IMG/VR virus record: IMGVR_UViG_3300022602_000031 | Span: 1 to 64,000 of that record | Origin: a virus | Length of the DNA stretch: 64,000 nt | Reading direction: 5' to 3' (one strand) | In this document: piece by piece, positions 1-14,955 of the stretch | Numbering within the stretch: the stretch's first letter is position 1 | How the letters are laid out: each line of letters opens with the position of its first letter | The notes under the pieces: model-generated | Told to the model about the DNA's origin: nothing | Seen by the model: the letters and a program-made list of their open reading frames with translations, nothing else | Databases searched by the model: none | Translations under genes and position numbers: made by a program

Positions 1-1004
1 ATGAGTCCATCGAGCGCGGCGTTAACTGGATATGGACCGGGAATACAGTATCCGAGATATGCATTGTCAAACTGTATTCGGCCTCCGTATACCAAAGCGG
101 CCGCGCCAAGGCTACTACCAGCATCACCGGGGTTAGGCATAATCCATATTTTTTCAAAGTAATCACCGAGATTTCTATTAGCGAGGCAGTTTAGGGCTAC
201 CCCTCCCATGTAAACCAAATTACGGCTCCACCCAAAGTCTTTTGCGCGGCGCATAACATTATATATCAAATTTTCACAAAAAGCCTGAGCAGAACTGGCA
301 ATATCCATAATATCGTAATGTTGGGCATAATCCCAGTTAAGGCCAGCGTGTAGGTTTTCTTTAAATGTACAGTTCCACTCGTCATCAATCAACTGCATTT
401 TCATTAGTACACTGGCGTGTTTACTTCCGTAGGCAGCCATACCCATAGTAATATACTCATCTTCCATTGGCTTTAGACCAATTTCTTGTGTCATTGCTGT
501 ATAGAACAAACCTATGCTATGTGGATATCGTTGACGCCATAGTCTGTGATACTTGGCCTGCCCATTGACATAGTGAGCACCCCATATACTAATCGTGTCC
601 CACTCCCCAATAGCATCAATAACTACTACTGTGGCCCGATCAAATGGGCTAGTTTGAAATCCAGCTGCCGCGTGACTTAGATGATGATTGTGTGTTGTAA
701 CAGGAACATTATCAAAAAAGCCGCCCAGCTGTTGCTTGAGTACCTGACGAGTTGTTAGTTTATTCCACTCAATGCCTTGCCCACTATACAGTTGACGTAA
801 CTGTTTCTTCCAAGGAGTTTCATAATAAGCAATATGATCAATATGTCTACCGCGACTAAACTCCCAAAGCATATCTTCGTGTAAATTGGGGTCATTCTTA
901 ATCTTGCTGTAACGCTCTGCGTGTCCAGCATATACTATCTCACCGTTGTTGATTACTGCGGCGGCGGCATCATGAAAGCCAGCCGAGATTCCTAATATGT
1001 TCAT
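1..1004 (-). CDS. Carbamoyltransferase (NodU/CmcH/TobZ family), N-terminal part, cut by window edge
   Basis: This gene reads off the left edge; only the first 334 codons are here and no stop is present. The start MNILGISAGFHDAAAA is typical of the family. Visible motifs are the His-rich NHHLSHAA near residues 105-112, GGVALNCLANR near 264-275 and PNPGDAGSSLGAA near 288-300, all belonging to the Kae1-like ATP/carbamoyl-phosphate domain. Known relatives run to roughly 570-610 residues and transfer a carbamoyl group to a hydroxyl on a sugar or antibiotic, so the missing part should be the YrdC-like C-terminal domain. The ATG lies 35 nt inside the preceding SGNH gene, so translation is probably coupled. 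The substrate is unknown; the neighbouring glycosyltransferases suggest a glycan (inference). Confidence 0.88.
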   Translation of the reverse strand, partial: MNILGISAGFHDAAAAVINNGEIVYAGHAERYSKIKNDPNLHEDMLWEFSRGRHIDHIAYYETPWKKQLRQLYSGQGIEWNKLTTRQVLKQQLGGFFDNVPVTTHNHHLSHAAAGFQTSPFDRATVVVIDAIGEWDTISIWGAHYVNGQAKYHRLWRQRYPHSIGLFYTAMTQEIGLKPMEDEYITMGMAAYGSKHASVLMKMQLIDDEWNCTFKENLHAGLNWDYAQHYDIMDIASSAQAFCENLIYNVMRRAKDFGWSRNLVYMGGVALNCLANRNLGDYFEKIWIMPNPGDAGSSLGAAALVYGGRIQFDNAYLGYCIPGPYPVNAALDGL

Positions 1005-1614
1005 TGATCTTTTCTGCTATTCTTTTGTGTCCTAATTCCAATGGATGTCCTCCGGGACCTTTAGGGCAATCACCTTGCCAGTCTATCATTCCCCACCTAG
1101 GCCACTCTACATAATATCGTGGATCTACCTGCATAATTAAGTCAACTAGTTTAGCTGAGTATTCATCATACAGCTCTTGTCTTAGGTCACTCCACATACC
1201 AAACGTACTACAAAATATGTAAGGTTTTTCTAATTGTTTAAGGTAACTTTGTAGCATAATGATTTGTCTAAACCATTTTTTATAACTATAAAGTCTATCG
1301 TAGTGTAAACTGTAATACTCGTCTACCCATTTAATATTTCTTTTACGTGCTGTATTAACATTAATGTCTAATAGGTCATTATCGTAAGGAACTTCAAACC
1401 TGTCAGGTTGTGTCCAGGCTACTACAATTAAATCGTACCGATTAACCTCTTCAAAAACAATTCGAATATTACGGTCGTTACTACCTCCGCCTTTGCCCAA
1501 ATTAGTAACGGACCAATTGTTAGTGACAGCCAACAAAGCAGGCCAGGCCTGTGTAGCAGGATCTGGTAATTCCTCTCCGGCGGTAAAGCTACAACCTACT
1601 GTTAGTACTTTCAT
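970..1614 (-). CDS. SGNH/GDSL-like hydrolase, 214 aa
   Basis: The N-terminus has the nucleophile block MKVLTVGCSFTAGEE (Ser9), followed by a Gly-rich turn GKGGGSNDRN near residue 40 and a C-terminal GGHPLELGHKRIAEKI block that supplies the catalytic His. This order matches SGNH-fold esterases and acyltransferases. The WTQPDRFE segment near residue 67 is common in phage members, but I cannot assign a substrate. It starts at an ATG overlapping the stop of the 33-codon microgene (ATGA), and its 3' end overlaps the carbamoyltransferase start by 35 nt. With a carbamoyltransferase next to it, removal or addition of acyl groups on a sugar is a reasonable guess only. Confidence 0.72.
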   Translation of the reverse strand: MKVLTVGCSFTAGEELPDPATQAWPALLAVTNNWSVTNLGKGGGSNDRNIRIVFEEVNRYDLIVVAWTQPDRFEVPYDNDLLDINVNTARKRNIKWVDEYYSLHYDRLYSYKKWFRQIIMLQSYLKQLEKPYIFCSTFGMWSDLRQELYDEYSAKLVDLIMQVDPRYYVEWPRWGMIDWQGDCPKGPGGHPLELGHKRIAEKINEHIRNLGWLS

Positions 1615-1712
1615 TTATAGATAAATGGGTCGCGTTTACGTAGCTCTTTTAATTTTTTACGATATTTGATTTCTAGCTTAATTCTATTGTATATGTTTTT
1701 TAACCAATTCAT
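1611..1712 (-). CDS. 33-aa basic microprotein, unknown function
   Basis: A short frame starting MNWLKNIYNRIKLEIKYRKK and ending ELRKRDPFIYK lies between two SGNH genes. Its ATG is 29 nt inside the end of the upstream gene, and its TGA overlaps the downstream ATG (ATGA). It is lysine/arginine-rich and predicted as one amphipathic helix. I recall small phage and bacterial proteins with the same RKRDPFIYK ending, which together with the perfect coupling argues that it is a real gene. Function is unknown; a cofactor or nucleic-acid-binding micropeptide is possible. Confidence 0.7.
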   Translation of the reverse strand: MNWLKNIYNRIKLEIKYRKKLKELRKRDPFIYK

Positions 1713-2238
1713 TGAATTTCTCCTGCATTAAATTTGCGGCGTCTATGTGTGCTTGTTCTAAGGGGTGATTGTCTGGACCTACTGTATACTTATTCTCAAC
1801 AGCCCACTGGTAAAATCCTCTCGGACTTGTTGTTTCGTGTGCTAGTGTACCAGCCGGAAATAAAAACCAATTATCATTAATGCTATCCAATAATGGAATT
1901 AGACAATTATCAGCACAGGTAAACATATAAGGAAAATTATGATATTCACAATAGTGTTGAAATTCTCTAATAACTCTAGGGCTGGTATAAACGGTATCTC
2001 TACTAGGCCAGGTCCAACACACAATAATAAATGGTTGCCCTGGAACTTTTTCTAGTGTAGTTTTTAGTCTAACAACAATATCATGATTTGAGTATCCTGG
2101 GTAAGCGGCACAAAAATACTTATTACCACCTAGTAATGCTGTAAAAGTATTTCGGCTATGACTACCGGGACGGCCATCTGGGCAGTCTGCTAGTTCGCTA
2201 CCAAATACAAAACTATCACCCCCGGCTACTGTAATCAT
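1684..2238 (-). CDS. SGNH-like hydrolase, second copy, 184 aa
   Basis: MITVAGGDSFVFGSEL carries a GDSF nucleophile block (Ser9). PGYSNHDIVVR near residue 47 looks like the oxyanion-hole region, and DNHPLEQAHIDAAN near residue 155 supplies the C-terminal Asp/His block. It is shorter than and clearly diverged from the SGNH gene downstream, but shares the order of blocks. The ATG at 2238 lies 23 nt inside the upstream unknown gene, so the two are probably translated in series. Likely role: a carbohydrate esterase or acyl-transferring partner of the adjacent glycan-type genes. The substrate cannot be seen. Confidence 0.66.
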   Translation of the reverse strand: MITVAGGDSFVFGSELADCPDGRPGSHSRNTFTALLGGNKYFCAAYPGYSNHDIVVRLKTTLEKVPGQPFIIVCWTWPSRDTVYTSPRVIREFQHYCEYHNFPYMFTCADNCLIPLLDSINDNWFLFPAGTLAHETTSPRGFYQWAVENKYTVGPDNHPLEQAHIDAANLMQEKFNELVKKHIQ

Positions 2239-3295
2239 ATCCTGGCTTCATCATATCTATCTGCATTTGTTTGTAATCAGGATCAGTCCAACAATAGTCA
2301 TATGTCCTGCGTACTCCGTCTATTTCAATACTGTGTACGTCTAAGTGACTGGCTAGTACGTCCCAAATTTGTTTGTAATTTGTAGTACCAAAGCTGGCTA
2401 GTAGATCTACTTGTCCTAATGGCAAATACCCTAAACTTAAATTAGGGTCAGCAGGGTCTCGGTTGTTGTCTATTAACCATTCCTTAAACGCCGCTTGCTC
2501 TTTGTCGTGCCAGAAATGTCCACCACCTAAGGTAACATTGTTACCCCATTCTATGTCAAACTCGCCCGAGTAGTATTGTAATTCTGTAATTGCTTCGCAT
2601 ACTGTTGCTGTAAGCTCAGGTGCATTCTCATCACGATAAACTTCAAATAGTGTCTTGCCTATCTGTGTCCAGTGCATATATACTCCGCCAAACACACGAT
2701 CATATCCATTGGCAACAAAGCCTTGTCTATGCTCGGGCTTTAAGTCGTAGCGTTGTGCTTGTAGGAATGTAGTAATCTGGCTAGGACGTACCCAATAAGG
2801 ATCTGTTGCTAGTTTACGTCTACTTAAGATAAGTGTTTCTAGCTCATGACATAAATTGTTTAGTTGACGTATAGCATACTTTGTTTCATAATCGGCGTTT
2901 CGATAATAAACACTTAGTCCACCGACAGTACCTTGTAGTCTCTCAAAGTGATTATGTAGCCGATTCATCATGTCGTGGTTAATGCCATTTTCAGCGTAGT
3001 CAAAGCCCACTACATTGTCGGGAGTAAATATTTCCCATATAAAATATTCGTTGTCAAAAAATCGATTAATGACACTGATATTTTGATTTAATTGGGCACA
3101 TAGATATTCTATAGTACGTGCTGTCTTGGGAAAACCCATAAAACAAAAGTTTTTCTCTAATAGGTTACCCGACTGTAATATGCCTTTTAAGGCCTGTTGC
3201 CAATCTTGTGCCAGCAGAGTGTCGTTAGGAATGATTGTGTAATCAACAAAATCATTTCTAAGTAAAGGGTTACGTAATATTACTTTAATTGCCAA
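2216..3295 (-). CDS. Conserved phage protein of unknown function, 359 aa
   Basis: I recognise the general look of this protein from marine phages (segments WVRPSQITTF, GGVYMHWTQIGKT, YYSGEFDIEWG, LSLGYLPLGQV), but I know of no assigned function. It is soluble, rich in aromatic residues and has no signal peptide or membrane helix. The start at 3295 is a TTG (MAIKVILRNPL); the next in-frame ATG is about 52 codons downstream and would remove what looks like a first beta strand, so TTG is preferred. It overlaps the radical-SAM gene before it by about 10 nt and the SGNH gene after it by 23 nt, so it belongs to the accessory operon. Confidence 0.6.
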   Translation of the reverse strand: MAIKVILRNPLLRNDFVDYTIIPNDTLLAQDWQQALKGILQSGNLLEKNFCFMGFPKTARTIEYLCAQLNQNISVINRFFDNEYFIWEIFTPDNVVGFDYAENGINHDMMNRLHNHFERLQGTVGGLSVYYRNADYETKYAIRQLNNLCHELETLILSRRKLATDPYWVRPSQITTFLQAQRYDLKPEHRQGFVANGYDRVFGGVYMHWTQIGKTLFEVYRDENAPELTATVCEAITELQYYSGEFDIEWGNNVTLGGGHFWHDKEQAAFKEWLIDNNRDPADPNLSLGYLPLGQVDLLASFGTTNYKQIWDVLASHLDVHSIEIDGVRRTYDYCWTDPDYKQMQIDMMKPGYDYSSRG

Positions 3296-4577
3296 TTGAA
3301 TCCCACCAAGCTAGTGCGTCTGGACGTTCTGCCAAGATGTCACGCATAGTATACTTGTCATTTCGAATTTTTTCAATCTCTAAAGTTCTTAGTTTGCCCT
3401 TTAGAGCCATTTGCCGATATGTATCAGGCCATTGTTCAGCAAATGTGGGTCTAGTTTTTAGCTGGATAAGTATGTCCTTCATGGACCCACTTGATGTAGT
3501 TAATAATTCGTCTATCCAAGGATGTAATACGTCTTTGGGTAGTGCCAAGGGGGACATTACTATGTCCGGGCTAAAACTAAAAATTACTTTGGCTAATATG
3601 TCTACGCCGAGTTCTTTGGCGAGCGATTGTATCGCTTGTACTTCAAAGAGTCCTGGTGTAGTAAGAGTGAAGTCCATACGGACTTGGCGCCGGTTACGGC
3701 TGTACGTAATTCCTTCACGGAAGTTCTCAAGCCAGTGATTAAAATCAAGACCTGATCGAATATACTCTCCAATTCTGCCCGTGCCATCGATGCTTGCGCA
3801 GATTTGCCAGTCTCGTAGCCCAGATAAAATATCCCTATACAGATTGATACCGCGATAATTGACACGACTAAGATTTGTGTTATACCTAGCGTAAACATTT
3901 TTTCCATCTCCAAGTTCTATGATGCGCCGCATATACTTCCAATGCTGTTCGTACATCAGCGGCTCACCCCCCACCCAATACACCTCTTCAACGCGGTGCT
4001 CCTCAACAGCAGTAGCAAACTCTTGCTCCACCTGGGTGTCTTGAAACTTCGTAATTTGCTCTTTGACTTCAGGTTTCATCCAATGTGTATTTGGATCCTT
4101 CCAGTCGATCATATTGTTTTGCCGTTGCTCAGTTTCCCAAGCACTGGACAACATATCTCCACACATCCTACATTTGAAGTTGCAGAGATTACTAAATCTA
4201 TAATCCCAACTTACAGGCTTCATTGTGGTATAGCCTGTACTGTCTGTACTCGCCATTGCGTCTAAGTACTTATGTCCAAATAGTCTATCAAAATAACTAC
4301 GGTAAACGTCTGTGTTTAGTAGCCGGTCGTTACATACTTCGCACTCGGGTAATGTCTCTCCGGACATCATACGGCGACGTACAGATTTCATATGATCTGA
4401 GTTCCAATGTTCATCCAAGGCGATAGGTATGTAACGACCAGTACCAGAAGATGTATCTATGTACTGTTGAAAATTCTGCGCAGGTTCACGTGACGCACAA
4501 CACATACGTCTTTCAGTTTGAGGACTTAGATACGTGTGTACCCAAGGCGCAAGGCAAAGTGTTTCAGGCTTTTTCAT
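3285..4577 (-). CDS. Radical SAM protein with N-terminal SPASM/twitch-like cluster (family A), 430 aa
   Basis: The radical-SAM core is marked by CNFKCRMC (CxxxCxxC, near residues 132-139), the SAM-binding motif WVGGEPLM and a following YNTNLS strand. Ahead of the core is a Cys module: CLAPW near residue 8, MCC near 25-27 and CEVC near 79-82. This resembles the auxiliary-cluster (SPASM/twitch) signature that usually follows the core, here placed before it. Such enzymes use a [4Fe-4S] cluster and S-adenosylmethionine to generate a radical; the substrate is not evident. A TTG at 4583 is also in frame, but the ATG at 4577 two codons on is the likelier start. It overlaps the upstream gene by 14 nt. 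Confidence 0.85.
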   Translation of the reverse strand: MKKPETLCLAPWVHTYLSPQTERRMCCASREPAQNFQQYIDTSSGTGRYIPIALDEHWNSDHMKSVRRRMMSGETLPECEVCNDRLLNTDVYRSYFDRLFGHKYLDAMASTDSTGYTTMKPVSWDYRFSNLCNFKCRMCGDMLSSAWETEQRQNNMIDWKDPNTHWMKPEVKEQITKFQDTQVEQEFATAVEEHRVEEVYWVGGEPLMYEQHWKYMRRIIELGDGKNVYARYNTNLSRVNYRGINLYRDILSGLRDWQICASIDGTGRIGEYIRSGLDFNHWLENFREGITYSRNRRQVRMDFTLTTPGLFEVQAIQSLAKELGVDILAKVIFSFSPDIVMSPLALPKDVLHPWIDELLTTSSGSMKDILIQLKTRPTFAEQWPDTYRQMALKGKLRTLEIEKIRNDKYTMRDILAERPDALAWWDSIGN

Positions 4578-5514
4578 TGGCAAATTCTAATATTGGGTAT
4601 ACTATATCCTGTGTAAATCGTTTATCGACTAATGCTCTATTATAAAATCTTTGATAGTTATATTCAACCTTTTCTTTGGTTAAATGAGAGTAGTCTTGAT
4701 GATCGTAAGCAACAACCTGTCGCCAAACTAGTTCTATTCTGCGTTCATCATCAGACACCAGATCGTAGTGCTCATCAAATAAATTACCAAAAGTTTCAAA
4801 TCCACCTTCGCGTATAAAATGTAGTGTAGTTGGGCAAGCAATAGTTATAAACGGGTGCCGTAGTGCCAATGGCTTCATTGTTTTTTCTGTTACAAAAACT
4901 TCTAAACGACCGCGGCTAACGGCTGTTTCTACTACTATGCTAAACTGTGTGCGATTATACCAATCGGGATTAATGTACCTATCCCAATGTTTTGTACTGC
5001 GTTCAATGTCGCCTTCTAGTCTGATTCCTCTGTCGACATAACTATACAGGCCTTGATCTGCAATGCCCTGGAACGCTTCGTGTATGTAATCTCTAAAGGA
5101 TCTTTGGTAATTCATCATCAACAAAAATTTACGATCAAATTTTGATTCTCGTACAAGATGTTGGTAATTAAATAAACGACTTTCTCTATACCAAAAGAAC
5201 CACGGAACTGTAATATAGGATTCGGGCAATCTACGATCATTAACACAGATCATATATCGTACCAACGGAGAACTATTTACGTAAGGTATACTGTTCTCTT
5301 GTAAATTTTCTACTAAAACTTTATACCCGGCACTTACTAAACTATTAAGATACATATCCTGGGCAGTATTTAATACAAACACCGTGCTGGCTTTATCATA
5401 GTCACGCTCAGCAGAATACTGTTCTAGTTCAAAATGGGGATCAAAGCATTCGCGAAACGCTGGATAGATGACGCGACCAAAGTCGTTGTCTAGGTGTATG
5501 AGTTTAATCTTCAT
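4564..5514 (-). CDS. Putative glycosyltransferase-like protein, 316 aa
   Basis: The C-terminal half has a segment TEKTMKPLALRHPFITIAC followed by REGGFETFGNLFDEHYD. This resembles the nucleotide-sugar-binding end of GT-B type enzymes (the TEK...PF pattern is also seen in fucosyltransferase-like proteins). The N-terminal part begins MKIKLIHLDNDFGR and has alternating strands and helices, as in a Rossmann domain. No membrane segment is visible. A TTG four codons upstream (5526) is possible, but ATG 5514 fits better and overlaps the end of the upstream radical-SAM gene. Assignment to glycosyl transfer is moderate; the sugar and acceptor are unknown. Confidence 0.45.
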   Translation of the reverse strand: MKIKLIHLDNDFGRVIYPAFRECFDPHFELEQYSAERDYDKASTVFVLNTAQDMYLNSLVSAGYKVLVENLQENSIPYVNSSPLVRYMICVNDRRLPESYITVPWFFWYRESRLFNYQHLVRESKFDRKFLLMMNYQRSFRDYIHEAFQGIADQGLYSYVDRGIRLEGDIERSTKHWDRYINPDWYNRTQFSIVVETAVSRGRLEVFVTEKTMKPLALRHPFITIACPTTLHFIREGGFETFGNLFDEHYDLVSDDERRIELVWRQVVAYDHQDYSHLTKEKVEYNYQRFYNRALVDKRFTQDIVYPILEFANEKA

Positions 5515-6751
5515 AGCCCATAGCAATAGCTATTTCACGATGTGTGTCACGAAAATCTTGTTGGCGGTATTGATCTGTTTGTTTCATTTTACGTAAAAAC
5601 TCAGACCCATCACTACCCGGACCGGCAGTGATAAAATTAATAACACTATCAATTTCTTCTTGGTAAACGTGGCTAGACCAAAATGTTGTTTTTAATTTAT
5701 CAAGTACAAGTTCCTGTGCTCGAGGAGTCATACGCTGTATGCTCATATGATCTGGACTATGTAGCATATTAAAGTAAATGCTACCAAAGTTTTTTGTATC
5801 AGCCCAGGCTAGTAATTCATCTAAGTAATAGACATTTTGTATATTAATCGTAAAACATAGCTGTGTAGTAATGTTACCGTGGCTAGGGTGATTGGTCATA
5901 TTATTAACTACATCAACGATTTCGTTAGCACGATCCCACTTAGCACCATAACGTTCATACTCAAAGCGATCGCCTACGTTGTCAATACTAAAAGCAACAT
6001 CAACACGACCAAACTCTGCCCATAGATCAAACAAGTTTGTGTCCCATTGAGTAGCATTGGTATTGTAATGAATGTCTATGTGTTTTGCATGGCCCGTTTG
6101 GCAAGCAAACTTTAATAAGTCTTTATGTTCTTCAATCATCCAAGGCTCGCCACCAGTGAATTCAAAGTAGCGTATGTTGGGAATTATATCACGCATATTA
6201 TCCCAAAAGGTTGTTGTCTTGCGCGGCCAGGCACCTTGCTTTAACCAGGTGTAGGCAATATGTTCTTTTTTATTACGCCCTGGCTCTAAGTAATTCATTT
6301 CTTCTTCAGCCCACTTACTACTAGACCACGATCCACATATACGACATTTAAGATTACAAATGTTACCCAACTTCAGATCAACAAACCATAGTTGATCAGG
6401 GTCATCATTTGCCCAGTCTACCTGTTTATACAATTCTTTAAGTCGAACCTGACTGTGAATTCGCTTACTATCGCGACCGGCTGCTTCTTCTTCCCAACAA
6501 CGGCTACAGGTGCTTGGCTTAACCCCGGCCCTAAATTGACGACGCAAATCTTGCATATATTCACTGTGGTACGCTTCTTCAATCGTGGTTTCATTTAGAT
6601 CATATTTCTTGCCATTGGCATCGGTTATTTCGTCGTGCGCCATACAGCACGGACGTACTGTGCCCATTGGACTAGTTTCAATACTCATCCAAGGTAGCAT
6701 ACAAATTGTTTTAGGTAGCTGTTTTAATTCCACAGGTTTGATTACACTCAT
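5504..6751 (-). CDS. Radical SAM protein with N-terminal SPASM/twitch-like cluster (family A), 415 aa
   Basis: The N-terminal Cys module is CMLPW (C17), RPCC (C35, C36) and CSRC (C82, C85); the core cluster is CNLKCRIC (C132, C136, C139) and the SAM motif FTGGEPWM follows. The YNTNATQW and FSIDNVGDR segments after it are the usual later strands of the partial TIM barrel. The architecture matches the 430-, 438- and 434-residue proteins of this window, so they are paralogues. It overlaps the family B radical-SAM gene upstream by 41 nt and the glycosyltransferase-like gene downstream by 11 nt. The reaction is unknown. Confidence 0.86.
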   Translation of the reverse strand: MSVIKPVELKQLPKTICMLPWMSIETSPMGTVRPCCMAHDEITDANGKKYDLNETTIEEAYHSEYMQDLRRQFRAGVKPSTCSRCWEEEAAGRDSKRIHSQVRLKELYKQVDWANDDPDQLWFVDLKLGNICNLKCRICGSWSSSKWAEEEMNYLEPGRNKKEHIAYTWLKQGAWPRKTTTFWDNMRDIIPNIRYFEFTGGEPWMIEEHKDLLKFACQTGHAKHIDIHYNTNATQWDTNLFDLWAEFGRVDVAFSIDNVGDRFEYERYGAKWDRANEIVDVVNNMTNHPSHGNITTQLCFTINIQNVYYLDELLAWADTKNFGSIYFNMLHSPDHMSIQRMTPRAQELVLDKLKTTFWSSHVYQEEIDSVINFITAGPGSDGSEFLRKMKQTDQYRQQDFRDTHREIAIAMGYED

Positions 6752-7712: not shown

Positions 7713-9025
7713 TTTAGGCTGTCAAACTCCGGGAACGTTGCCCAAAAGTCTTCTCCACGTATACGATCTAATTTAGCACACTCTTCTACAAAACGTGGCC
7801 AATGTTGATGTTGGTCGTTGGCCTGTATAAAGTTTAACGCTGACTTAAATCCATTTGTAGCACGACGTAGTTTGTCTTGTGGCTCTAACCAAGCAATATG
7901 TTGTTCATATGCTGGAACAATAACATTTTTCTTAAACTCTTCTGGAAATATATCAACGCGATACCATTCAGGACTTTGGCAAATGTTTACATTAAAGTCC
8001 TGTGCTCTAATTAATCCTAATTCTGTCCACTCTCTATGGAAGTCTAATACGTGTAAGATATTCATTGCGCTAACCGTGGCGCTAATGTAAAAGTCTACGT
8101 GCGGGACTTCTTGAATCATGCGTTGACGATTATCTACAGCCTGTGCCCAGTCAGTTCCTTTACGCATCAGCTCCGCTCTAGCTCCACTGGCATCTAAACT
8201 AGCACCCACACTGACATTTTTAAATTTGCGCCAGTAGTCAAATACGTGTTTGTCTTTATAGCGTAGTTCACTGAAGTTAGTATTGTATTGAATACGCACG
8301 TCTGTTTTATCAAGTTCTTCTAACTTTTCTAGCAGGAAGTAATGCTCTTTCATGATTAGTGGCTCGCCACCGGCAAAGTATACCTGCTCCAGATGCGGAA
8401 CGTGTGGCATCATTTGACGTATCATATCATCTTCATCACCTGCGGCATACTCTACACGTAGCATATCGCGGCCCAATACATCGGGTTTACGATTATATAA
8501 CTTTACGTGATCGTTATACCAATTTGAACTAAAAATAGGACCACAGCTACGGCAACTAAAATTACATAAGTTGCTAAACCTGACGTCCCAATAACGTATT
8601 TTAAATTCGGGGTTTGTTCCATCTTCTTCTGTTCTTTCTGCTTCGGCTATGTGATGTCCGTAATTACGATTGGCGTCGTTACGCATACTAAAGAAACCAT
8701 TGGCTTCCTGCTCATAGCATTTTGTACACTCTTTACACTCACGTTCAGTAAGCATATTCTTACGCATTGTTTTGTATGGATCTTGATTCCATACTTCTTC
8801 CATGGTATTTTTACGTAGGTCTCCTACTGGATGCCAATAGTCACTTAAACAACAAGGATAAGCACGACCATCCGGAAAGGCGTGTAAATGTACCCACGGC
8901 AACATACAAAAACGATCGCTTTCGGTCAACAACTGCCATTGGCGTGGAGTTAAATCTTCACGTTCAATGAAATATGGCTTACGAGCCATATAGTCATAAC
9001 CTTTGTTATAAAAGTCTTTGCTCAT
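7709..9025 (-). CDS. Radical SAM protein with N-terminal SPASM/twitch-like cluster (family A), 438 aa
   Basis: CMLPW near residue 40, YPCC near 58 and CTKCYEQEANG near 103 form the N-terminal auxiliary-cluster module. CNFSCRSC is the SAM-cleaving cluster motif and FAGGEPLIM binds SAM. Between CC and CxxC is the segment GDLRKNTMEEVWNQDPY, like the one following SPASM domains of peptide-modifying enzymes. The frame is open up to a TTG at 9040, but the ATG at 9025 overlaps the upstream stop as ATGA and is taken as the start. The downstream gene is again joined by ATGA. Function beyond radical chemistry is unknown. Confidence 0.86.
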   Translation of the reverse strand: MSKDFYNKGYDYMARKPYFIEREDLTPRQWQLLTESDRFCMLPWVHLHAFPDGRAYPCCLSDYWHPVGDLRKNTMEEVWNQDPYKTMRKNMLTERECKECTKCYEQEANGFFSMRNDANRNYGHHIAEAERTEEDGTNPEFKIRYWDVRFSNLCNFSCRSCGPIFSSNWYNDHVKLYNRKPDVLGRDMLRVEYAAGDEDDMIRQMMPHVPHLEQVYFAGGEPLIMKEHYFLLEKLEELDKTDVRIQYNTNFSELRYKDKHVFDYWRKFKNVSVGASLDASGARAELMRKGTDWAQAVDNRQRMIQEVPHVDFYISATVSAMNILHVLDFHREWTELGLIRAQDFNVNICQSPEWYRVDIFPEEFKKNVIVPAYEQHIAWLEPQDKLRRATNGFKSALNFIQANDQHQHWPRFVEECAKLDRIRGEDFWATFPEFDSLK

Positions 9026-10386
9026 AGTGTTGTGTACCAATTGGCCAATGCCGGAAATGCTTCTGTAAAGTTTTTACCTCTGCGTTGGTCGTATTGTGTA
9101 TAAAACTTTTTAAAGTCTTGTTGTAGTACTGATTGTTCTGCGGCGCCCATATGCGGAGTTTTAACTACATCAAGATAGTCAATTAATCTTTGTAGTTGAT
9201 TGATTTCAAATTGATGTAACATCGGATCATCGCGATTAGCATCTAACCAATCTTGTAGTCTAATTTTATAGTGTGTACGCAAATTATCAGGTAGAACCAA
9301 TGGGCTCTGAAAACTAGGGAAGCGCAGGATATTCAAACTAAAGGTTGGGAAGTCTCGTCCGTATTCACGTTTCCAATTTAAACAGCAGTCTAAGAAGCTG
9401 TCTAGCGTATCTAGACACAAGGCATTAATAGTACACATCATATGGAAGCCTTCTAACTTGCCATTGGTTAGTACTTTTTCTACGTTGTTAGCCCAATCGT
9501 CCCAGACTAACCCATCACGTATGTATTCGCTTTGTTGGCTTATTGATTCATTACTGGTATACAAATGAAAATGCTTGATGCTGTGTGTAGCATCTATTAG
9601 TCGATCAATTAGATCGTCCTTGGCGCCAAGATTGCTGTTCATAGCAAACTTTATGTCTGTATTGTTGTTTTTAAACCAGTCTAGTAATCGCCAGGTATCA
9701 CCACTCATAAGAGGCTCACCGCCGGTTAGTCTGAGTTCTTTTAGTGTTCTGTGGAGGTCTGATTCCCACCATTTAAAGAAGGCATCAACATAAGGATTCT
9801 GTTGATTAAACTTGTAAAGCTGACTGCTAGAATGATTGTGAGTAAAATGATTTCTGCCATCACTAACCAATTCCACATAAGGGCCGTTGCGATCCAAATC
9901 ATTAACCCAAGTTGAGCTGAAAGCAGGGTTACAGTAGGAACAAGCAAAATTACAGGTACGATCGAATGCGATTTCCAAAGTTTGTAAATCAACGTCTGCA
10001 TTTGAATCCAATTGGTATGCGCTATCCAGGTCTTCGTCTGAATAGATAACTGTTTTATATACTCTGTCGCTGATGTTATCACGGCCTATGTCCTCTATTT
10101 TCCAGCAGTACTCGCAACCGCCTGGGCGTTCGCCTTGTTGCATTTGTTTGCGTTCGGCTTTTTTCTTTGGCGTATTATGTAGTGCTTTAGGATTATTTAT
10201 TACGTCCTCAACACTGACCTGATGTGGTAGTGGGTGATGACAACTAGTAGTTTGTCCCGATCCTAACCATATAGTAGCGTTATACCATTTTGCGCCGCAG
10301 AACGACTCTGACTTAATGTCAATTACACGGCGTTTGTATTCTAAATCTGTCTCGTTATTAGTTCTGGGCATGGTATCTACATTCAT
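9022..10386 (-). CDS. Radical SAM protein, variant family A with CxxKW module, 454 aa
   Basis: CNFACSYC (near residue 150) and LTGGEPLMS identify a radical-SAM core. The N-terminal module has CGAKW instead of CxxPW, then TSCHHPLPH instead of a CC pair, then CEYCWKIEDIGRD. It is clearly a tandem paralogue of the next gene upstream (shared ALHNT, ERPG(G/E)C, NPYVDAF(F/W) and WW segments). The replacement of one Cys by His-rich residues suggests an altered or absent auxiliary cluster (inference). The ATG at 10386 has a GGGA ribosome-binding sequence just upstream and overlaps the upstream gene by 29 nt. Confidence 0.84.
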   Translation of the reverse strand: MNVDTMPRTNNETDLEYKRRVIDIKSESFCGAKWYNATIWLGSGQTTSCHHPLPHQVSVEDVINNPKALHNTPKKKAERKQMQQGERPGGCEYCWKIEDIGRDNISDRVYKTVIYSDEDLDSAYQLDSNADVDLQTLEIAFDRTCNFACSYCNPAFSSTWVNDLDRNGPYVELVSDGRNHFTHNHSSSQLYKFNQQNPYVDAFFKWWESDLHRTLKELRLTGGEPLMSGDTWRLLDWFKNNNTDIKFAMNSNLGAKDDLIDRLIDATHSIKHFHLYTSNESISQQSEYIRDGLVWDDWANNVEKVLTNGKLEGFHMMCTINALCLDTLDSFLDCCLNWKREYGRDFPTFSLNILRFPSFQSPLVLPDNLRTHYKIRLQDWLDANRDDPMLHQFEINQLQRLIDYLDVVKTPHMGAAEQSVLQQDFKKFYTQYDQRRGKNFTEAFPALANWYTTL

Positions 10387-11743
10387 CCCAAAATTCTTTC
10401 ATTTCAGGAAAGGTTGCTAAAAAATCAGTTTGTCGACGAGTATCGTGAGCATTAAAGAAACGATAAAAGTCAGCTCGTTGTAGTTTAACATATTTTGGAT
10501 CTAAATTACAACCTTCTCGCATCCAATCTATATCACGACGCATACGTTGTACTTCGTAGTCTTTGAATCCGTGGAATGGATCGTCTGGTGTTTCTAAATT
10601 AAGTTCCATCCAGTCAGCTACACGTTCTAATACACCCGCATACACAGGTGGCAATATTTGTAGACTTTGCCAGGTCGGTGTGCGTAGTAGCGGAGTATCA
10701 AACCAAACACGTTGATATGTAGTGCTGTACTTTTTACGTAATTCAAGAATCCAATTTAATTGTCGTTGTAGTCCGAGTACACTTAGATTATTCATAGTAA
10801 TAATAAATGTAAGACTATTACGGTGCGGAATTTCTGTTAAGAATCTATTGACATTCTCGTGTAGTCGATTCATATTGAGTCCGTGCCGTATATACTCAGC
10901 GTGTCGTATGTCGCCAGAGTCTACACTAACATACTGCATAAAATGTTCAATTTGTGTAGAACATAATTGTTTTACATAGTCAAGATACTTGTTCATTAAG
11001 TTATCTTCTACACTAAAGTTACTGGTAACATTCAAATGTAATTCTGGATTAGGTAGTGCTAGTACATAGTCAAATACTCTATAGGTATTCTTGTCCATTA
11101 GTGGCTCACCACCAGTCATACGGAAATGTTTTAGTTGTGGATAAAGGGTTGGCCACCATTCCCAAAATGCATCGACATAAGGATTATCTTGGGAAGCAGG
11201 TATAGGGCGCCGATTGCCAACAAAATGGCGGGGATCATTATGTATCGTACTGGTTGGGTATCCGCCCCATCGATCCACTTCCTCCATCCACTTACTACTA
11301 AACTGAGGGCTACAATAACTACATCGCAGATTACACGCATGGTTGAAGTTAACCTCGACGTACGACGGAATAACATCCGTTTCATTTCCGGTACTTGTTC
11401 TAATTTTATCATAGTCTTCGGCCGCCCATGGCTCTCCCGATCTGTAGTGTCTGTCACTTAGGTTTCCTAAATCCTCTTGTGTCCAGCAATAACTACATTC
11501 GCCGGGACGTTCATTCTTAAGCATAATAACACGTTGCTGTTTCTTATGCTCGGTGTTGTGTAGTGCGCCAGGATTGTCTTTTAATACACTGGCGTCAATT
11601 GGATGCAATGGTGGATGGTAACAGCTATTATTTAACCCTGTGGCTAAATGTAGGCTAACCTGTTTCCACTTAGCCAAACATAAAGCAGTTCCTAGTTTTT
11701 CTTGCATCTGCTCTGCGGCAGACATAAAGTCTGATTTACTCAC
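10358..11743 (-). CDS. Radical SAM protein, variant family A with CxxKW module, 461 aa
   Basis: The core motif is CNLRCSYC and the SAM motif MTGGEPLMD. The N-terminal module reads CLAKW, NSCYHPPLH and CSYCWTQEDLG, the same variant as in the neighbouring 454-residue paralogue. The two form a tandem duplication that has diverged well beyond recent copying. The start is a GTG at 11743 (MSKSDFMSAAEQM), eight nt inside the end of the glycosyltransferase gene; an ATG six codons in is the alternative. Substrate unknown; its position directly after a glycosyltransferase suggests a sugar- or glycan-related reaction, but this is inference. Confidence 0.83.
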   Translation of the reverse strand: MSKSDFMSAAEQMQEKLGTALCLAKWKQVSLHLATGLNNSCYHPPLHPIDASVLKDNPGALHNTEHKKQQRVIMLKNERPGECSYCWTQEDLGNLSDRHYRSGEPWAAEDYDKIRTSTGNETDVIPSYVEVNFNHACNLRCSYCSPQFSSKWMEEVDRWGGYPTSTIHNDPRHFVGNRRPIPASQDNPYVDAFWEWWPTLYPQLKHFRMTGGEPLMDKNTYRVFDYVLALPNPELHLNVTSNFSVEDNLMNKYLDYVKQLCSTQIEHFMQYVSVDSGDIRHAEYIRHGLNMNRLHENVNRFLTEIPHRNSLTFIITMNNLSVLGLQRQLNWILELRKKYSTTYQRVWFDTPLLRTPTWQSLQILPPVYAGVLERVADWMELNLETPDDPFHGFKDYEVQRMRRDIDWMREGCNLDPKYVKLQRADFYRFFNAHDTRRQTDFLATFPEMKEFWDECRYHAQN

Positions 11744-12629
11744 GAACCATCGGCCCTTGATTTTTAAATGTTGATTTATAATGATGTTTGAAGAATCTGC
11801 TTTCTTCTGGATCCATATCTACTATAGATAAACTTAAACGCTTACGTAGTATATCACCAACGCTACGGCATTCATCTGCGCCATCTTTACTAAAACTTTC
11901 CCATAGTCTAGCCAGCACATCAAAATCTTGTACGTCTCGATAGTTCCAACCTTCTATCATAGTCATAAACGTACCAAGACGTGCTCCATATATTGCCCAA
12001 AAGCCGTTGTCGGCATCTGCGCCTACACTTTGCCATATACAAAGATTATCATAGTTACGATTGTTTACACGCGATTCAAATTCTGTCATATTAGGAAGAC
12101 TGCCGCGATCTAAACACATCTTAACACCTTCACGGAACCCGGCACGCCAGGCCTGAAATGGAGTAGCATTAGGATATGTTACACTATAGCAATCAGCCAT
12201 TGCCCAGTAGTTAGGATAAAAACAAAACTCTACATCATTTTCTGCCGTACCATCTGAGTTTTCGTGTGTACGCATACTGTAGATAAAATCTCTAGTCCAA
12301 CAGCTAAGTCCGCCGTTGCCATACATCAGTCCGTTAATAGCGTTGCGAGCCCGCCAGCGAAATACGCAATCGCGATTGGTATTGTCAAGAACCAATTGCA
12401 GGTTGAAAAAATTACTATCTGGAATGTTATCGCCATCAATAAGCACAAACCGGTCTGTATCACTAGCATCGGCAGCCGCTTTGTGAGCGGCATCACTACC
12501 TTTAACTCCATCGACTCGTTTGGCCCAGGGCACCATGTTTTGGATCTGTATCCAGTGTTCTTCTTTTTTAGGTTCATCGTATGTTAAGTATATACAATCT
12601 AAATCTGCTACGTCAATTAATTCGTTCAT
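11736..12629 (-). CDS. Putative GT-A glycosyltransferase, 297 aa
   Basis: A strand ending in FVLIDGDN (Asp65, Asp67) looks like the metal/nucleotide-sugar-binding DxD motif of GT-A fold enzymes, and it is followed by a second strand block with GGLSCWTRDF. The N-terminal IYLTYDEPKKEEHW is consistent with the first Rossmann-like strand. No membrane helix or signal peptide is visible, so it should act in the host cytoplasm. The ATG at 12629 overlaps the small upstream gene by 17 nt. Likely role: transfer of a sugar to DNA, to a virion protein or to a lipid-free acceptor; which one cannot be seen. Confidence 0.58.
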   Translation of the reverse strand: MNELIDVADLDCIYLTYDEPKKEEHWIQIQNMVPWAKRVDGVKGSDAAHKAAADASDTDRFVLIDGDNIPDSNFFNLQLVLDNTNRDCVFRWRARNAINGLMYGNGGLSCWTRDFIYSMRTHENSDGTAENDVEFCFYPNYWAMADCYSVTYPNATPFQAWRAGFREGVKMCLDRGSLPNMTEFESRVNNRNYDNLCIWQSVGADADNGFWAIYGARLGTFMTMIEGWNYRDVQDFDVLARLWESFSKDGADECRSVGDILRKRLSLSIVDMDPEESRFFKHHYKSTFKNQGPMVRE

Positions 12630-12963
12630 AATATTCTATATCTTGGTATTCATCGCCAGACTCTAGTATAATGCCGGCATGATTTTTTACAACTGCTAGT
12701 CCTTGTGTAGACTTGCGTAATTTTACTCGGTACTGTGCGTCAGATTCAAACTTTTTTAATTTTCCATCTACTACAGTATATCGAAAATAATTATCGTACG
12801 TTTCTTTATCAACCACAATATAAGATCCAATTATAGCAGGATCTTCTATCATTGTACAGGCCGTAATGTTGCCATCCTCATTATAGTAAAGCCTATATTC
12901 AATCGCAGGTGGCCGAATTGGTTCCAATAACCGTTCGATTTCAAGTTCAAATTCTTGATTCAT
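12613..12963 (-). CDS. Small acidic hypothetical protein, 116 aa
   Basis: I do not recognise this protein. It reads as mostly beta structure with two blocks (YRLYYNEDGNI and GSYIVVDKETYDNY) and a KHAGIILESGDEY-like end. It has no Cys motif, membrane segment or signal peptide. It overlaps the upstream glycosyltransferase-like gene by 17 nt and the downstream one by 17 nt, so it is part of the same translation chain and may be an accessory subunit of a glycosyltransferase. Confidence 0.55.
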   Translation of the reverse strand: MNQEFELEIERLLEPIRPPAIEYRLYYNEDGNITACTMIEDPAIIGSYIVVDKETYDNYFRYTVVDGKLKKFESDAQYRVKLRKSTQGLAVVKNHAGIILESGDEYQDIEYYERIN

Positions 12964-13798
12964 AGTACTCGATTAATTCTTTAGTAGCAAAATTTTTATC
13001 ATAGTAGTGTACTGGGCTTAACTGATTTAAATTGTTTATGCGAATAACATCACCTTCTTGTTCATATAAAACTGTATCCACCCAACTACGAGCATCTAAC
13101 CACCCATTGAATTCTGATTTCATATGTACAAAATTAATAAAATCCATCCCGGGCATTGTACAGGTTTCAACTCCCACTATCATTGCGGCCAGCGCATACA
13201 GTACATCAGTGCTGGGATTATCTTCTCTACAGTTTACTAAGATTTCATTTTTTATATGATGCCAGTTACGGTGTAATACTTCGGCTACTTTAAAAAAGTT
13301 AGCGCCATCACGACTGTATCTAAAATACATCAGTCCGTTATATACGTCTGGCAATTCATTGTCGTCAAACACACGCCGATATTTTCTTACACCGGATATT
13401 AAATCTCTATAGTTTCTAGCGTGTGTGCTTAAACATAAATCTTTTAATCTAAAGGCTGTCCACCAATGGTCAATACTGCGAGTAAACAGTAAGTCACTTT
13501 CTAATTTAATAGTTTCTTTAAACGGTGTGAGATTAAAAACCTGATATTCATTGCCCAGCTTCCAATTAGAGGAAGCATTATTATTGTCATAGGGAACACG
13601 AATAATATAATCAAAAACACGACGATGGCTATCATTAATTTTCTCCTCAGTTGCTGTGTCAACAATTACTGCGTATTGGTTATTCTTTTGTGTTGCTTTA
13701 ACATTAAGAGCCTGCAGATATGCCAGCTCCAAATAATCTACTGTGTCTGTGTTTTGTGCGAAAGTAACAAAACCCTGTTGTTCTTTATGTTGGCTCAA
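12947..13798 (-). CDS. GT-A glycosyltransferase-like protein with altered DxD, 283 aa
   Basis: This is a paralogue of the next gene upstream: both open with a strand like GFVTFAQNTDTVDYLELA, then a position corresponding to the DxD motif, and both have a NYHYYRE/RNWHHIKNE helix. Here the motif reads LESDLLF (Glu100-Ser-Asp102) where the partner has LDVDYLML, so metal binding may be altered. The start is a TTG at 13798; it is supported by a strong GGAGG six nt upstream (13805-13809) and by the absence of a nearby ATG. It overlaps the upstream gene by 14 nt. Confidence 0.55.
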   Translation of the reverse strand: MSQHKEQQGFVTFAQNTDTVDYLELAYLQALNVKATQKNNQYAVIVDTATEEKINDSHRRVFDYIIRVPYDNNNASSNWKLGNEYQVFNLTPFKETIKLESDLLFTRSIDHWWTAFRLKDLCLSTHARNYRDLISGVRKYRRVFDDNELPDVYNGLMYFRYSRDGANFFKVAEVLHRNWHHIKNEILVNCREDNPSTDVLYALAAMIVGVETCTMPGMDFINFVHMKSEFNGWLDARSWVDTVLYEQEGDVIRINNLNQLSPVHYYDKNFATKELIEYYESRI

Positions 13799-14603
13799 CT
13801 ATTGCCTCCACTACCTGTCGAAAGTTATCACTTTGTAAATACTCTTTGTCGATTACGTGTATATTCATACGTGGTACTACTGTAGCTGATTTATCGTAAT
13901 AGATTCTAACCTGAGTAGCAGTCGTTACAATACGTTCTATCTTTTGATCTGCTGTGTACATAGGCCACGGAATACTCTGTGATTCATTTAAGTTGTATCC
14001 ACTGAGAATATTGTTAGCAATAGCAAATGCGTAGTCATTGCGATAATTGCCTTCACGTATATTATATAATTCTCTATAGTAGTGATAATTACGTTGTATC
14101 TTTCCTACTAGATTAAACAACATTTGACTGCGTTCAGTTTTTTTAAATACAACTACTGTAGCCCATACAAATGGTAAACTAGTTTCGCCCATTTCTTCAT
14201 AGGCCGGCCCAATGTCTGTGGTGTTGTGATGCATTAATCTATAGTCTTGAACTGTGTCTGCTATTTTTAATAGACTATTGTCTAACATTAGATAGTCAAC
14301 ATCAAGCAATATAGTTGTGTCGTATGGACTTAGTTCATAGGCATTGTATCTTCCCCGATTGCGCCAGGCTATTTCTTTACCATCGTTGATTCTAAAAGTC
14401 GCACGTTCAGGATTGATACGAATTATTTGATCATAGGCAAACGTGGGCGTAGTAGTATCATCTGTTACTAAGGTAATTGGTAATTGGAGATTGTGTGCAG
14501 CCAAACGACTTGTTAGGTCAGCTATAGACACGTAGTCTACCTGCGTATTGAAGGCAAATATAATGATGCCTTTAGATTTTGCGGAGACGTTTGAGTTCGC
14601 CAT
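13785..14603 (-). CDS. GT-A glycosyltransferase-like protein (GT8-like), 272 aa
   Basis: GIIIFAFNTQVDY, LVTDD near residues 45-49 and TILLDVDYLML (Asp101, Asp103) follow the order of a GT-A nucleotide-sugar transferase. The aspartates would bind the metal and the sugar nucleotide. PFVWATVVVFKKTE near residue 145 resembles the acceptor-side strand of GT8 enzymes. The protein is soluble and lacks a signal. The ATG at 14603 lies 32 nt inside the 106-residue gene upstream. It is probably the active member of a pair with the diverged paralogue downstream. Confidence 0.6.
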   Translation of the reverse strand: MANSNVSAKSKGIIIFAFNTQVDYVSIADLTSRLAAHNLQLPITLVTDDTTTPTFAYDQIIRINPERATFRINDGKEIAWRNRGRYNAYELSPYDTTILLDVDYLMLDNSLLKIADTVQDYRLMHHNTTDIGPAYEEMGETSLPFVWATVVVFKKTERSQMLFNLVGKIQRNYHYYRELYNIREGNYRNDYAFAIANNILSGYNLNESQSIPWPMYTADQKIERIVTTATQVRIYYDKSATVVPRMNIHVIDKEYLQSDNFRQVVEAIVEPT

Positions 14604-14892
14604 GTTCTTGATGCCAACGATTCATTACTTGTTGATAATGTTCTTTACATTGTGTTGCAAAGAATTCTGGATCTATAATATGTATAGGGTTTTGGTATGT
14701 GTCTTCTAGATAAAGTGGCTCGTGTTTTGGCCAACTTGAACTGAACATTAATAACTCTGGAGTAACTTTAAACAGGCCACCATTATAAGCAAAATGCAAA
14801 TCTGTTTGGATTTTTTCACGCAAGATGCGTTTGTTAATTTGGTAATCAGTTGCCCGACGTATTTCGGCAGTGAGTTGTTCGATTTCGCTCAT
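14572..14892 (-). CDS. Hypothetical protein, 106 aa
   Basis: This is the first gene after the fibre-operon hairpin. The protein starts MSEIEQLTAEIRRATDYQIN and is charged and helical at both ends, with a short hydrophobic middle (GGLFKVTPELLMFSSSW). A Trp/Pro-rich stretch KHEPLYLEDTYQNPIHIID may bind a partner. I know of no function. It overlaps the glycosyltransferase gene downstream by 32 nt and probably leads the accessory operon. Confidence 0.6.
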   Translation of the reverse strand: MSEIEQLTAEIRRATDYQINKRILREKIQTDLHFAYNGGLFKVTPELLMFSSSWPKHEPLYLEDTYQNPIHIIDPEFFATQCKEHYQQVMNRWHQEHGELKRLRKI

Positions 14893-14902
14893 AATAGAAT
14901 AT

Positions 14903-14935
14903 AGGTGTAGACAGCTAGTATACTAGTCTACACCT
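14903..14935 (-). terminator. Hairpin between fibre operon and accessory operon
   Basis: A perfect 10-bp stem (AGGTGTAGAC / GTCTACACCT) encloses an inner palindrome CTAGTATACTAG. It lies 20 nt past the end of the last fibre gene and 10 nt before the next ATG. There is no clean U-run (ATATTCTATT follows), so it could be a weak terminator, a processing site or an mRNA-stability element. Confidence 0.5.
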
Positions 14936-14955
14936 GGAATGTCAACTACTTTGGA

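Follow-up and report, generated by a model that had tools for sequence, protein, structure and literature searches.

Phages with several radical S-adenosylmethionine (radical-SAM) genes have been noted since 2010, with general guesses only about their role in the parts of that paper covered here (PMC2853527). The Campylobacter phages CP220 and CPt10 carry 11 and 12 such genes, and a cluster in each consists of five radical-SAM genes and a putative glycine amidinotransferase (PMC2853527). The T4-like genome TARA_ERS488813_N000010, 183 kb long, has 12 radical-SAM genes, which were taken as part of iron-sulfur (Fe-S) metabolism (PMC5332604). In pelagimyophages, the host-recognition clusters place glycosyltransferases by tail-fibre genes, and two genomes differ by radical-SAM cassettes (PMC7029224). 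Here we describe a 16-gene cassette in the viral record IMGVR_UViG_3300022602_000031, which is 180,049 bases long; its first 64 kb are called the window below. The cassette is real and deeply conserved; its members are of known enzyme kinds, and as a unit it is undescribed within the literature searched. The reading that we favour, and to which we give about an even chance, is that a phage-encoded pathway assembles and modifies a glycan carried by a soluble phage protein, the first candidate being TF339, the product of the gene directly upstream. The short gene names (CT, SGNH1, U359, rS1, GTB, TF339 and so on) were coined in this analysis.

The pelagimyophage clusters are hypervariable according to the sections of that paper covered here, whereas here a fixed backbone carries variable slots; the word "carbamoyl" occurs 0 times in the main text of the same paper (PMC7029224), whereas the cassette has a carbamoyltransferase, CT. 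CP220 has no match above the cut-off to the NCBIfam model NF033640 (N_Twi_rSAM), to which five cassette proteins belong, and none to the glycosyltransferase candidate U297. In comparison with N_Twi_rSAM proteins generally, the cassette has five diverged paralogues in a fixed order. TARA_ERS488813_N000010 may carry the same cassette. No cassette-bearing isolate was found among 50,697 GenBank phage records searched with eight proteins: U359, U297, U283, U272, U106 and TF339 had no match there, and rS4 and rS6 matched only the Vibrio phages K566 and K567, at about 25% identity. These have a radical-SAM cluster with two K566 proteins above the NF033640 cut-off, and K566, unlike the cassette, has no match to U297. 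No description of a cassette of this composition was found in the full-text literature searched, with subscription papers mostly outside it; nothing that bears on it turned up in PMC10783043 and PMC10436341. Within that scope the claim of a preliminary description, made from the window sequence alone, that no phage pathway with this set has been described holds, with phages rich in radical-SAM genes and glycosyltransferases in tail-fibre regions already published, as far as those papers were covered (PMC2853527, PMC5332604, PMC7029224).

Composition and conservation of the cassette

The record is T4-like, with strong portal and major-head PHROG matches and SbcC/SbcD-type genes, which we take to be gp46/47. 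The cassette occupies window positions 3–14892 and consists of 16 consecutive genes, all on the minus strand (as are all features below given as window coordinates with two dots), behind tail-fibre-type genes within 15988–20366. It comprises six radical-SAM genes, three glycosyltransferase-like genes, GTB, two SGNH-like genes, one O-carbamoyltransferase gene and three others. With program-assigned starts, 14 of the 15 gene junctions overlap. The preliminary description counted seventeen genes where we find 16; its single strand, its near-complete overlap and its other coordinates are borne out. Four of the products (U116, U106, SGNH2 and GTB) have no family by Pfam, PHROGs or NCBIfam.

The cassette is not a chance arrangement, as the same order is found in many other viral contigs. 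Searches by tblastn with 20 window proteins found it on one strand of other viral contigs, which were scanned twice, with 51 loci in one scan and 80 in the other. These loci are not independent: the same contig can be reached in several scans, which inflates the counts of slot genes, and some contigs are near-duplicates (for example L053/L054/L059). Collinearity was assessed, using the best plus-strand match of 15 families where present, in those 30 of the 51 rS4 loci whose flanks reach at least 8.9 kb on each side. The gene order is collinear in 30/30. U297, rS6, rS5, rS4, rS2, rS1 and U359 are present in all 30; U283, U116 and CT in 29; U272 and SGNH1 in 28; SGNH2 in 27; TF339 and U106 in 25; TF615 in 20; GTB in 18; and rS3 in 5. 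The genes found in the insertion slots fall into clusters of GTB-like (76, of which 67 match GTB), N_Twi-type radical-SAM (48) and SGNH-like genes (28), figures inflated by the repeated contigs. From each locus one best plus-strand match per family was extracted, and open reading frames (ORFs) cut at the locus end or below 75% length were dropped.

The linkage to the upstream gene is strict. TF339 (14956..15975) has no family match and is structural-type by position; TF615 (15988..17835) is a tail-fibre or virion-type protein with PHROG matches to tail fiber and virion structural families. Upstream of U106, TF339 occurs in 28/28 loci and TF615 in 27/28. Scans with TF339 and U106 kept the best 80 of 218 and of at least 538 matches, respectively, and downstream genes were counted in the 49 of 80 TF339 loci with at least 9.5 kb and the 42 of 80 U106 loci with at least 9 kb. 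Among these best-80 matches, TF339 is followed by U106, U272, U283, U297 and rS6 in 49/49 loci and by U116 in 48, and U106 by U272, U283, U116, U297 and rS6 in 42/42. At the shorter reaches of 6.0 and 7.5 kb, none of rS4–rS6 was seen in 10 of 50 and in 6 of 52 loci, respectively; every one of these has rS6 further downstream.

Sampling the best 80 under-samples distant TF339 relatives, and a scan with a diverged TF339, from contig L148 (binned as Rickettsiales), was run to offset this. It gave 21 loci of a second clade, of which three (L360, L372 and L375) were left out for little downstream sequence; L360 has the glycosyltransferase head. Most loci have the order TF615-TF339-U106-U272-U283-U297-rS6-rS5-rS4-rS1-rS2, in which rS1 and rS2 have changed places; identity is about 50% for rS4 and 28% for TF339. 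With at least 5.8 kb downstream, U272, U283 and U297 occur in 18/18 loci and rS6 in 16/18; U106 is unmatched in L357 and L358. Co-conservation in related phages, whose absence had been named beforehand as refuting, is thus very strong, and the second clade keeps most of the gene order. L376 (a 103-kb contig) and L377 (453 kb), which are alike in every match, have TF339 and the glycosyltransferase head and no match to a cassette radical-SAM gene within 10.7 kb, and L377 has no ORF with CxxxCxxC there either. Given these two contigs, the glycosyltransferases look like the base layer of the cassette and the radical-SAM genes like an addition to it.

Three contigs binned as Rickettsiales metagenome-assembled genomes (L148, L173 and L175) carry the cassette or parts of it, and are probably mis-binned phage.

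Predicted enzymes of the cassette

U297 (11736..12629), present in 30/30 loci, is a candidate GT-A-fold glycosyltransferase with a DGDN motif. Its AlphaFold2 model (pLDDT, the predicted local distance difference test score, of 86.8) matched mostly glycosyltransferases and nucleotidyltransferases in the PDB (Z 9.9–8.1 over 126–146 residues in 48 of 50 rows); the best match, at Z 9.9 over 140 residues, covers about residues 4–154. We consider with moderate confidence that the first ~150 residues are predicted to form a GT-A nucleotide-binding fold with DxD. By PDB sequence profile U297 gave a single chance-level match, and profile comparison detected no relation to U272.

U283 (12947..13798) and U272 (13785..14603) are glycosyltransferase-like paralogues (hhalign probability 98.6), the latter with DxD and a C-terminal HxxxK. 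A joint U272/U283 profile with second-clade relatives matched 19 PDB sequences, all 19 glycogenin or NleB, at weak E values of 0.087–0.56, and the DxD aligns with the DxD in both alignments shown. Glycogenin and NleB are GT-A enzymes. These matches of the proteins at 12947 and 13785 are weak, and, being to glycosyltransferases only, count toward a glycan. All three genes had been described as encoding DxD-type proteins, which is right for those at 11736 (DGDN) and 13785 (DVD), while that at 12947 has E-x-D (LESD). The GT-B-like label given to a fourth, GTB (4564..5526), found no confirmation: GTB has no Pfam match and a single chance-level match by PDB profile, and no glycosyltransferase is among the 25 Pfam families listed for 43 members of its family, which occupies variable slots of the cassette.

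Five of the six radical-SAM proteins have an N-terminal twitch region and are members of N_Twi_rSAM, whose curated cut-off is 170 bits: rS1 (3285..4583, 287.1 bits), rS2 (5504..6751, 341.6), rS4 (7709..9040, 396.3), rS5 (9022..10386, 305.1) and rS6 (10358..11743, 297). In these five, three core and four or five N-terminal cysteines are invariant in every distinct ortholog sequence (eight cysteines in 83/83 for rS1; 71/71, 69/69, 41/41 and 73/73 for rS2, rS4, rS5 and rS6). The optional rS3 (6711..7712) matches Pfam Radical_SAM at 2.8e-8, scores 16.4 bits against N_Twi_rSAM, below the cut-off, and has neither GGEP nor the N-terminal twitch region. As first noted, CxxxCxxC/GGEP cores are present at 3285, 5504, 7709, 9022 and 10358, and the sixth protein, at 6711, has a GxxGD variant, reading NGNYGD at the place of GGEP. 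CxxxCxxC is intact in all six, in rS3 in 7/7 ortholog sequences.

Twenty records picked because they bear the cassette were compared with 14 control genomes. The former have 6–16 N_Twi_rSAM matches each at E≤1e-3, and at least one above the cut-off in 20/20; weak matches occur in all 14 controls, and none (0/14) has one above the cut-off. For such numbers of radical-SAM genes a boost to general host or Fe-S metabolism was proposed for the Campylobacter phages and the T4-like genome with 12 radical-SAM genes, in the parts of those papers covered here (PMC2853527, PMC5332604). No Fe-S assembly family is among the cassette matches, and the fixed order with glycosyltransferases and TF339 argues for one pathway, contrary to a general Fe-S role; we regard this as the least probable of the readings considered, to be given hardly any weight.

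A profile of seven paralogues matches solved structures of viperin, MoaA, SkfB, tetraether synthase and cytosylglucuronate decarboxylase; the match of its N-terminal portion to the C-terminal part of BtrN has an E value of only 0.024. The Pfam SPASM model covers the region before the core, above the cut-off in two N_Twi proteins and below it in a third. The cores score alike against peptide maturases, MoaA and viperin and so do not point to sugar chemistry in particular. The enzymes might instead cross-link or modify residues of a phage structural protein, in the manner of ribosomally synthesised and post-translationally modified peptides (RiPPs), with the glycosyltransferases acting on the same protein. 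This would fit the peptide maturases among their profile relatives and the structural matches of U297, which include the peptide S-glycosyltransferases SunS and ThuS and the collagen-modifying COLGALT1. It would also fit U359 (2216..3295), a conserved protein that may be cyclophilin-like: its AlphaFold2 model (pLDDT 88.3; pTM, the predicted template modelling score, 0.88) gives a hint of a cyclophilin-like barrel interrupted by a long helical insertion. Against the PDB (VIA) this model gave Z 8.3–7.2, a middling range, with 41 of 50 rows cyclophilins by title and the two top rows mitoribosome chains; Foldseek against the PDB gave a best E of 0.84 and nothing at E≤0.001, and the sequence profile gave chance-level matches only. 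However, none of the 16 proteins has a PqqD/RRE-type match by Pfam or NCBIfam, there is no obvious precursor peptide among ORFs of at least 80 aa, and TF339 is far more diverged (mean identity about 0.46) than rS4 (0.71) across 13 shared loci. We rate this reading as improbable.

The record holds further radical-SAM genes. A second pair lies at window positions 51830–52819 and 52809–54113, directly behind the SbcC/SbcD-type genes; the best NCBIfam model of one member is that of rS3, and the other matches N_Twi_rSAM at 226 bits. Others are at L012:5406-7638, L013:5154-6602, L013:8640-10115 and L012:4037-4921, one with a weak B12-binding domain match. Record-wide there are 11 Radical_SAM matches and one more below the cut-off.

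CT (3..1004) is an O-carbamoyltransferase cut by the contig end, its N-terminal 334 aa matching Pfam Carbam_trans_N at 6.2e-39. The full protein, of 491 aa, is found on a near-identical contig (L016/L067, 124.5 kb, 99–100% identity to the window in the 20 proteins compared), with both Carbam_trans_C (2.1e-47) and Carbam_trans_N (4e-38) above their cut-offs. Its closest solved structures are decarbamoylnovobiocin carbamoyltransferase, GdmN and TobZ. The carbamoyl enzyme previously placed at the promoter-distal end is thus of the NovN/GdmN/TobZ type, with which it shares both Pfam domains in the full copy, though it is shorter than the listed chains (491 aa against 576–702). SGNH1 (970..1614) is a candidate SGNH/GDSL-type esterase or acyltransferase, with a DUF6071 match (2.2e-7) above the cut-off and Lipase_GDSL (0.018, 15.6 bits) short of its cut-off of 23.6; G7, S9 and H190 are conserved in 65/65 sequences. 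SGNH2 (1684..2238) has a GDS-type start, seen by eye, no Pfam match, and H158 and H164 in 59/59. The SGNH enzymes named in the preliminary description thus have the motifs and conserved key residues, while the Pfam GDSL cut-off is not reached. Two small conserved proteins match no family: U116 (12613..12963), in 29/30 loci and unmatched in the second clade, and U106 (14572..14892), the first gene of the cassette.

On L067 the sequence continues past the contig end. There the full CT is accompanied by an APS-kinase-like gene, a GTB-like gene (384 aa) on the opposite strand, a protein of 557 aa that is in part U297-like (27%), a DegT aminotransferase and an NAD-epimerase; two further genes were named by eye, one thymidylate synthase-like and one DHFR-like. 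In some relatives a StrB/AGAT-like amidinotransferase lies near the cassette (1.9e-12): matches at E≤1e-3 occur in 8 of the 20 cassette-bearing records, four of them good, and the window's own record has none. This mix is like that of antibiotic sugars (a TobZ/NovN-type CT, a DegT/DnrJ/StrS aminotransferase and, in some relatives, a StrB-like amidinotransferase), so that the product could be a diffusible, aminoglycoside-like small molecule. The position behind tail fibres and the strict TF339 linkage speak against this, as do the lack of a cyclitol synthase among the Pfam-scanned proteins (part of the record only) and the two contigs that retain TF339 and the glycosyltransferases with no radical-SAM genes nearby. 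A small molecule is, in our judgement, very improbable.

DNA hypermodification was also considered for the glycosyltransferases and CT. The nearby thymidylate synthase-like gene on L067, the only gene checked and itself named by eye, looks ordinary, with PFNI kept; the Asn of this motif is the usual residue for thymidylate (dTMP) synthesis.

Promoter, candidate acceptor and proposed pathway

The head of the cassette (14893..14955) has a TTGACA box at 14945–14940, a 17-bp spacer and TATACT at 14922–14917, and a palindrome with 10-bp arms at 14935–14903 encloses the −10 box. We compared the TF339–U106 gaps of 20–200 bp (2 of 33 dropped) in the first clade, including the window, which gave 31 sequences, 26 of them distinct. 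In these 26, a promoter with at least 10 of 12 matches is found in 17 (dinucleotide shuffles, mean 0.8), a stem of at least 8 in 23 (mean 1.07), and a promoter of at least 9 with the −10 box inside a stem of at least 7 in 16 (mean 0.22, maximum 2). The stem arms vary in sequence between phages while pairing is maintained; T-runs follow some stems, which are terminator-like, and not others, which are operator-like. Several second-clade sequences have, as judged by eye, a TATAAT within an imperfect palindrome shortly upstream of the U106 start. Only three other strong promoter-like sites in the 180-kb record have a stem of at least 7 round the −10 box; they lie near positions 157845, 170965 and 12858, the last within a gene. 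The cassette thus seems to be transcribed as a unit of its own from a putative sigma70-like promoter, so that simple co-transcription with the tail fibres becomes less likely.

A sigma70-like promoter suggests expression by host RNA polymerase, possibly early, and this fits at least as well with a different target, the host surface glycan, remodelled for receptor masking or superinfection exclusion by enzymes acting on nucleotide sugars or host lipid-linked O-chain precursors. Genes for nucleoside diphosphate (NDP) sugars lie nearby, and the pelagimyophage glycosyltransferases were interpreted in this way by their authors, in the sections covered here (PMC7029224). On the other side, the cassette proteins include no flippase, polymerase or membrane-bound initiating transferase and have no strongly hydrophobic segment, the highest 19-residue hydropathy being 1.50 over the 16 proteins (the first 334 aa for CT); in five continuation genes no such window exceeds 1.37. 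Nor has host remodelling any need of the strict TF339 linkage. We rate it as rather unlikely, although it is the main rival of the favoured reading. Assembly of an O-antigen by the phage alone was set aside, as the cassette is without membrane proteins.

The favoured reading remains a glycan on a soluble phage protein. Its glycan nature is suggested by the GT-A fold, the carbamoyltransferase, the NDP-sugar genes and the amidinotransferase of some relatives; a soluble acceptor by the lack of strongly hydrophobic segments; and a virion-protein acceptor, the weakest step, by the strict TF339 linkage. U272, U283 and U297, as presumed GT-A enzymes, would transfer sugars from nucleotide donors, partly supplied by phage genes such as the continuation epimerase and DegT aminotransferase, to a soluble cytoplasmic acceptor. 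The five twitch radical-SAM enzymes would then carry out stepwise C-H chemistry on the sugars, for example dehydrogenation, epimerisation or deoxygenation; the SGNH enzymes would add or remove acyl groups, and CT would cap a hydroxyl with carbamate. Members of the variable slots (GTB-like, extra radical-SAM and SGNH) could alter the final structure. The likeliest acceptor would be a virion protein, TF339 first, and the glycan would mask or alter the adhesive surface of the phage. The dedicated pathway for a glycan or glycosylated polypeptide proposed in the preliminary description is thus partly supported and is the best reading, given the moderately confident U297 model, CT, the NDP-sugar genes and the lack of membrane segments. 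Its suggestion of tail fibres as targets gains from the strict TF339 linkage and loses from the cassette's own promoter, and stays conjectural.

Several observations weigh against this pathway. The best Foldseek match of U297 has E 4.3e-3, with none at E≤0.001; the U272 profile alone matches nothing in the PDB, and no Pfam glycosyltransferase family matches U272, U283 or their second-clade relatives, so that these two are putative glycosyltransferases by motifs and weak profile matches. GTB is without an assigned identity. The substrates, products and activities of the members are all predicted from sequence and models. The radical-SAM scores, similar against peptide maturases, MoaA and viperin, single out no reaction, which may be on protein. 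Sugars on the host surface are an equally conceivable target for a phage. U116, U359 and CT are unmatched in the second clade within about 11 kb. The apparent promoter makes co-expression with the tail fibres conjectural. T4-type late motifs are rarer in the window than expected by chance (TATAAATA 2 against 8.1, CTAAATA 4 against 18.5), and no timing of expression can be read from them. The divergence of TF339 correlates only moderately with that of rS4 (r 0.59, 13 loci). The gene in Pseudomonas phage Paride that resembles TF339 is adjoined only by hypothetical and structural annotations, none cassette-like.

That gene (L356; Paride is PA5oct-like) has a TF339-like N-terminal part (E 4e-4, 52% of the query); the query, a diverged TF339, aligns in ten Pseudomonas phage records with a hypothetical protein, each time with its N-terminal half. 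The divergence of TF339 correlates at r 0.84 with U272 and U116 and at 0.38–0.73 with radical-SAM genes (10–25 loci each); shared ancestry is uncorrected, and these values are not used as evidence.

A fuller version can be put forward, possible although we doubt it: a widespread T4-like lineage may make a virion-borne glycan whose sugars are rebuilt by five twitch radical-SAM enzymes with or after the glycosyltransferases and are then acylated and carbamoylated, slot exchange giving each phage its own glycan "serotype". If so, radical chemistry would take place on a phage glycoprotein, and N_Twi_rSAM enzymes would gain a first role. Five enzymes in one ordered cassette with glycosyltransferases and a strictly linked upstream gene provide a concrete, testable substrate hypothesis. 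If that hypothesis is right, these phages hold new enzymes for C-H modification of carbohydrates or glycoproteins, and uncultured phages could change their surface by varying its glycan decoration.

Among the tail-fibre genes, at window positions 17836–18432, there is a 2-oxoglutarate (2OG)-Fe(II) oxygenase gene, present in 2 of 30 related loci.

Bacterial relatives and other genes of the record

Relatives in Bdellovibrionia suggest that the chemistry extends beyond phages. By record titles, the bacterial groups with N_Twi_rSAM genes include Bdellovibrionota, Alphaproteobacteria and Flavobacteriales; two Bdellovibrionota genomes have 33 and 25 matches at E≤1e-3. One of these two has both a U297 homologue of 44% identity and a second U297-like gene directly before an N_Twi_rSAM gene, and an rS3-like gene close by. 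L150, L152 and L154 each have a weak match to a carbamoyltransferase no more than several kb from an N_Twi_rSAM gene. The neighbours of the Alphaproteobacteria N_Twi_rSAM genes, viewed by eye, have no clear common context. Bdellovibrionota clusters rich in N_Twi_rSAM genes (L187-L190 and L199) also hold family-2 glycosyltransferases and U297 homologues, together with an ORF that is amidinotransferase-like by eye and has no Pfam match.

Elsewhere in the record are further sugar-type genes, at L014:66-1061, L014:6833-8053 and L012:11067-11855 (an NAD-epimerase, a C-methyltransferase, and a cytidylyltransferase fused to a mannose-6-phosphate-isomerase-type cupin), and two tryptophan-halogenase-family genes, at L012:14505-16109 and L013:7463-8647 (Pfam 1.4e-56 and 9.7e-91). 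A gene for a DctP-type solute-binding protein lies at L012:18707-19654 (record 138707). The ORFs at record positions 154139–155146 and 156087–157043 begin like it, as judged by eye, and each of the three is followed by a smaller ORF.

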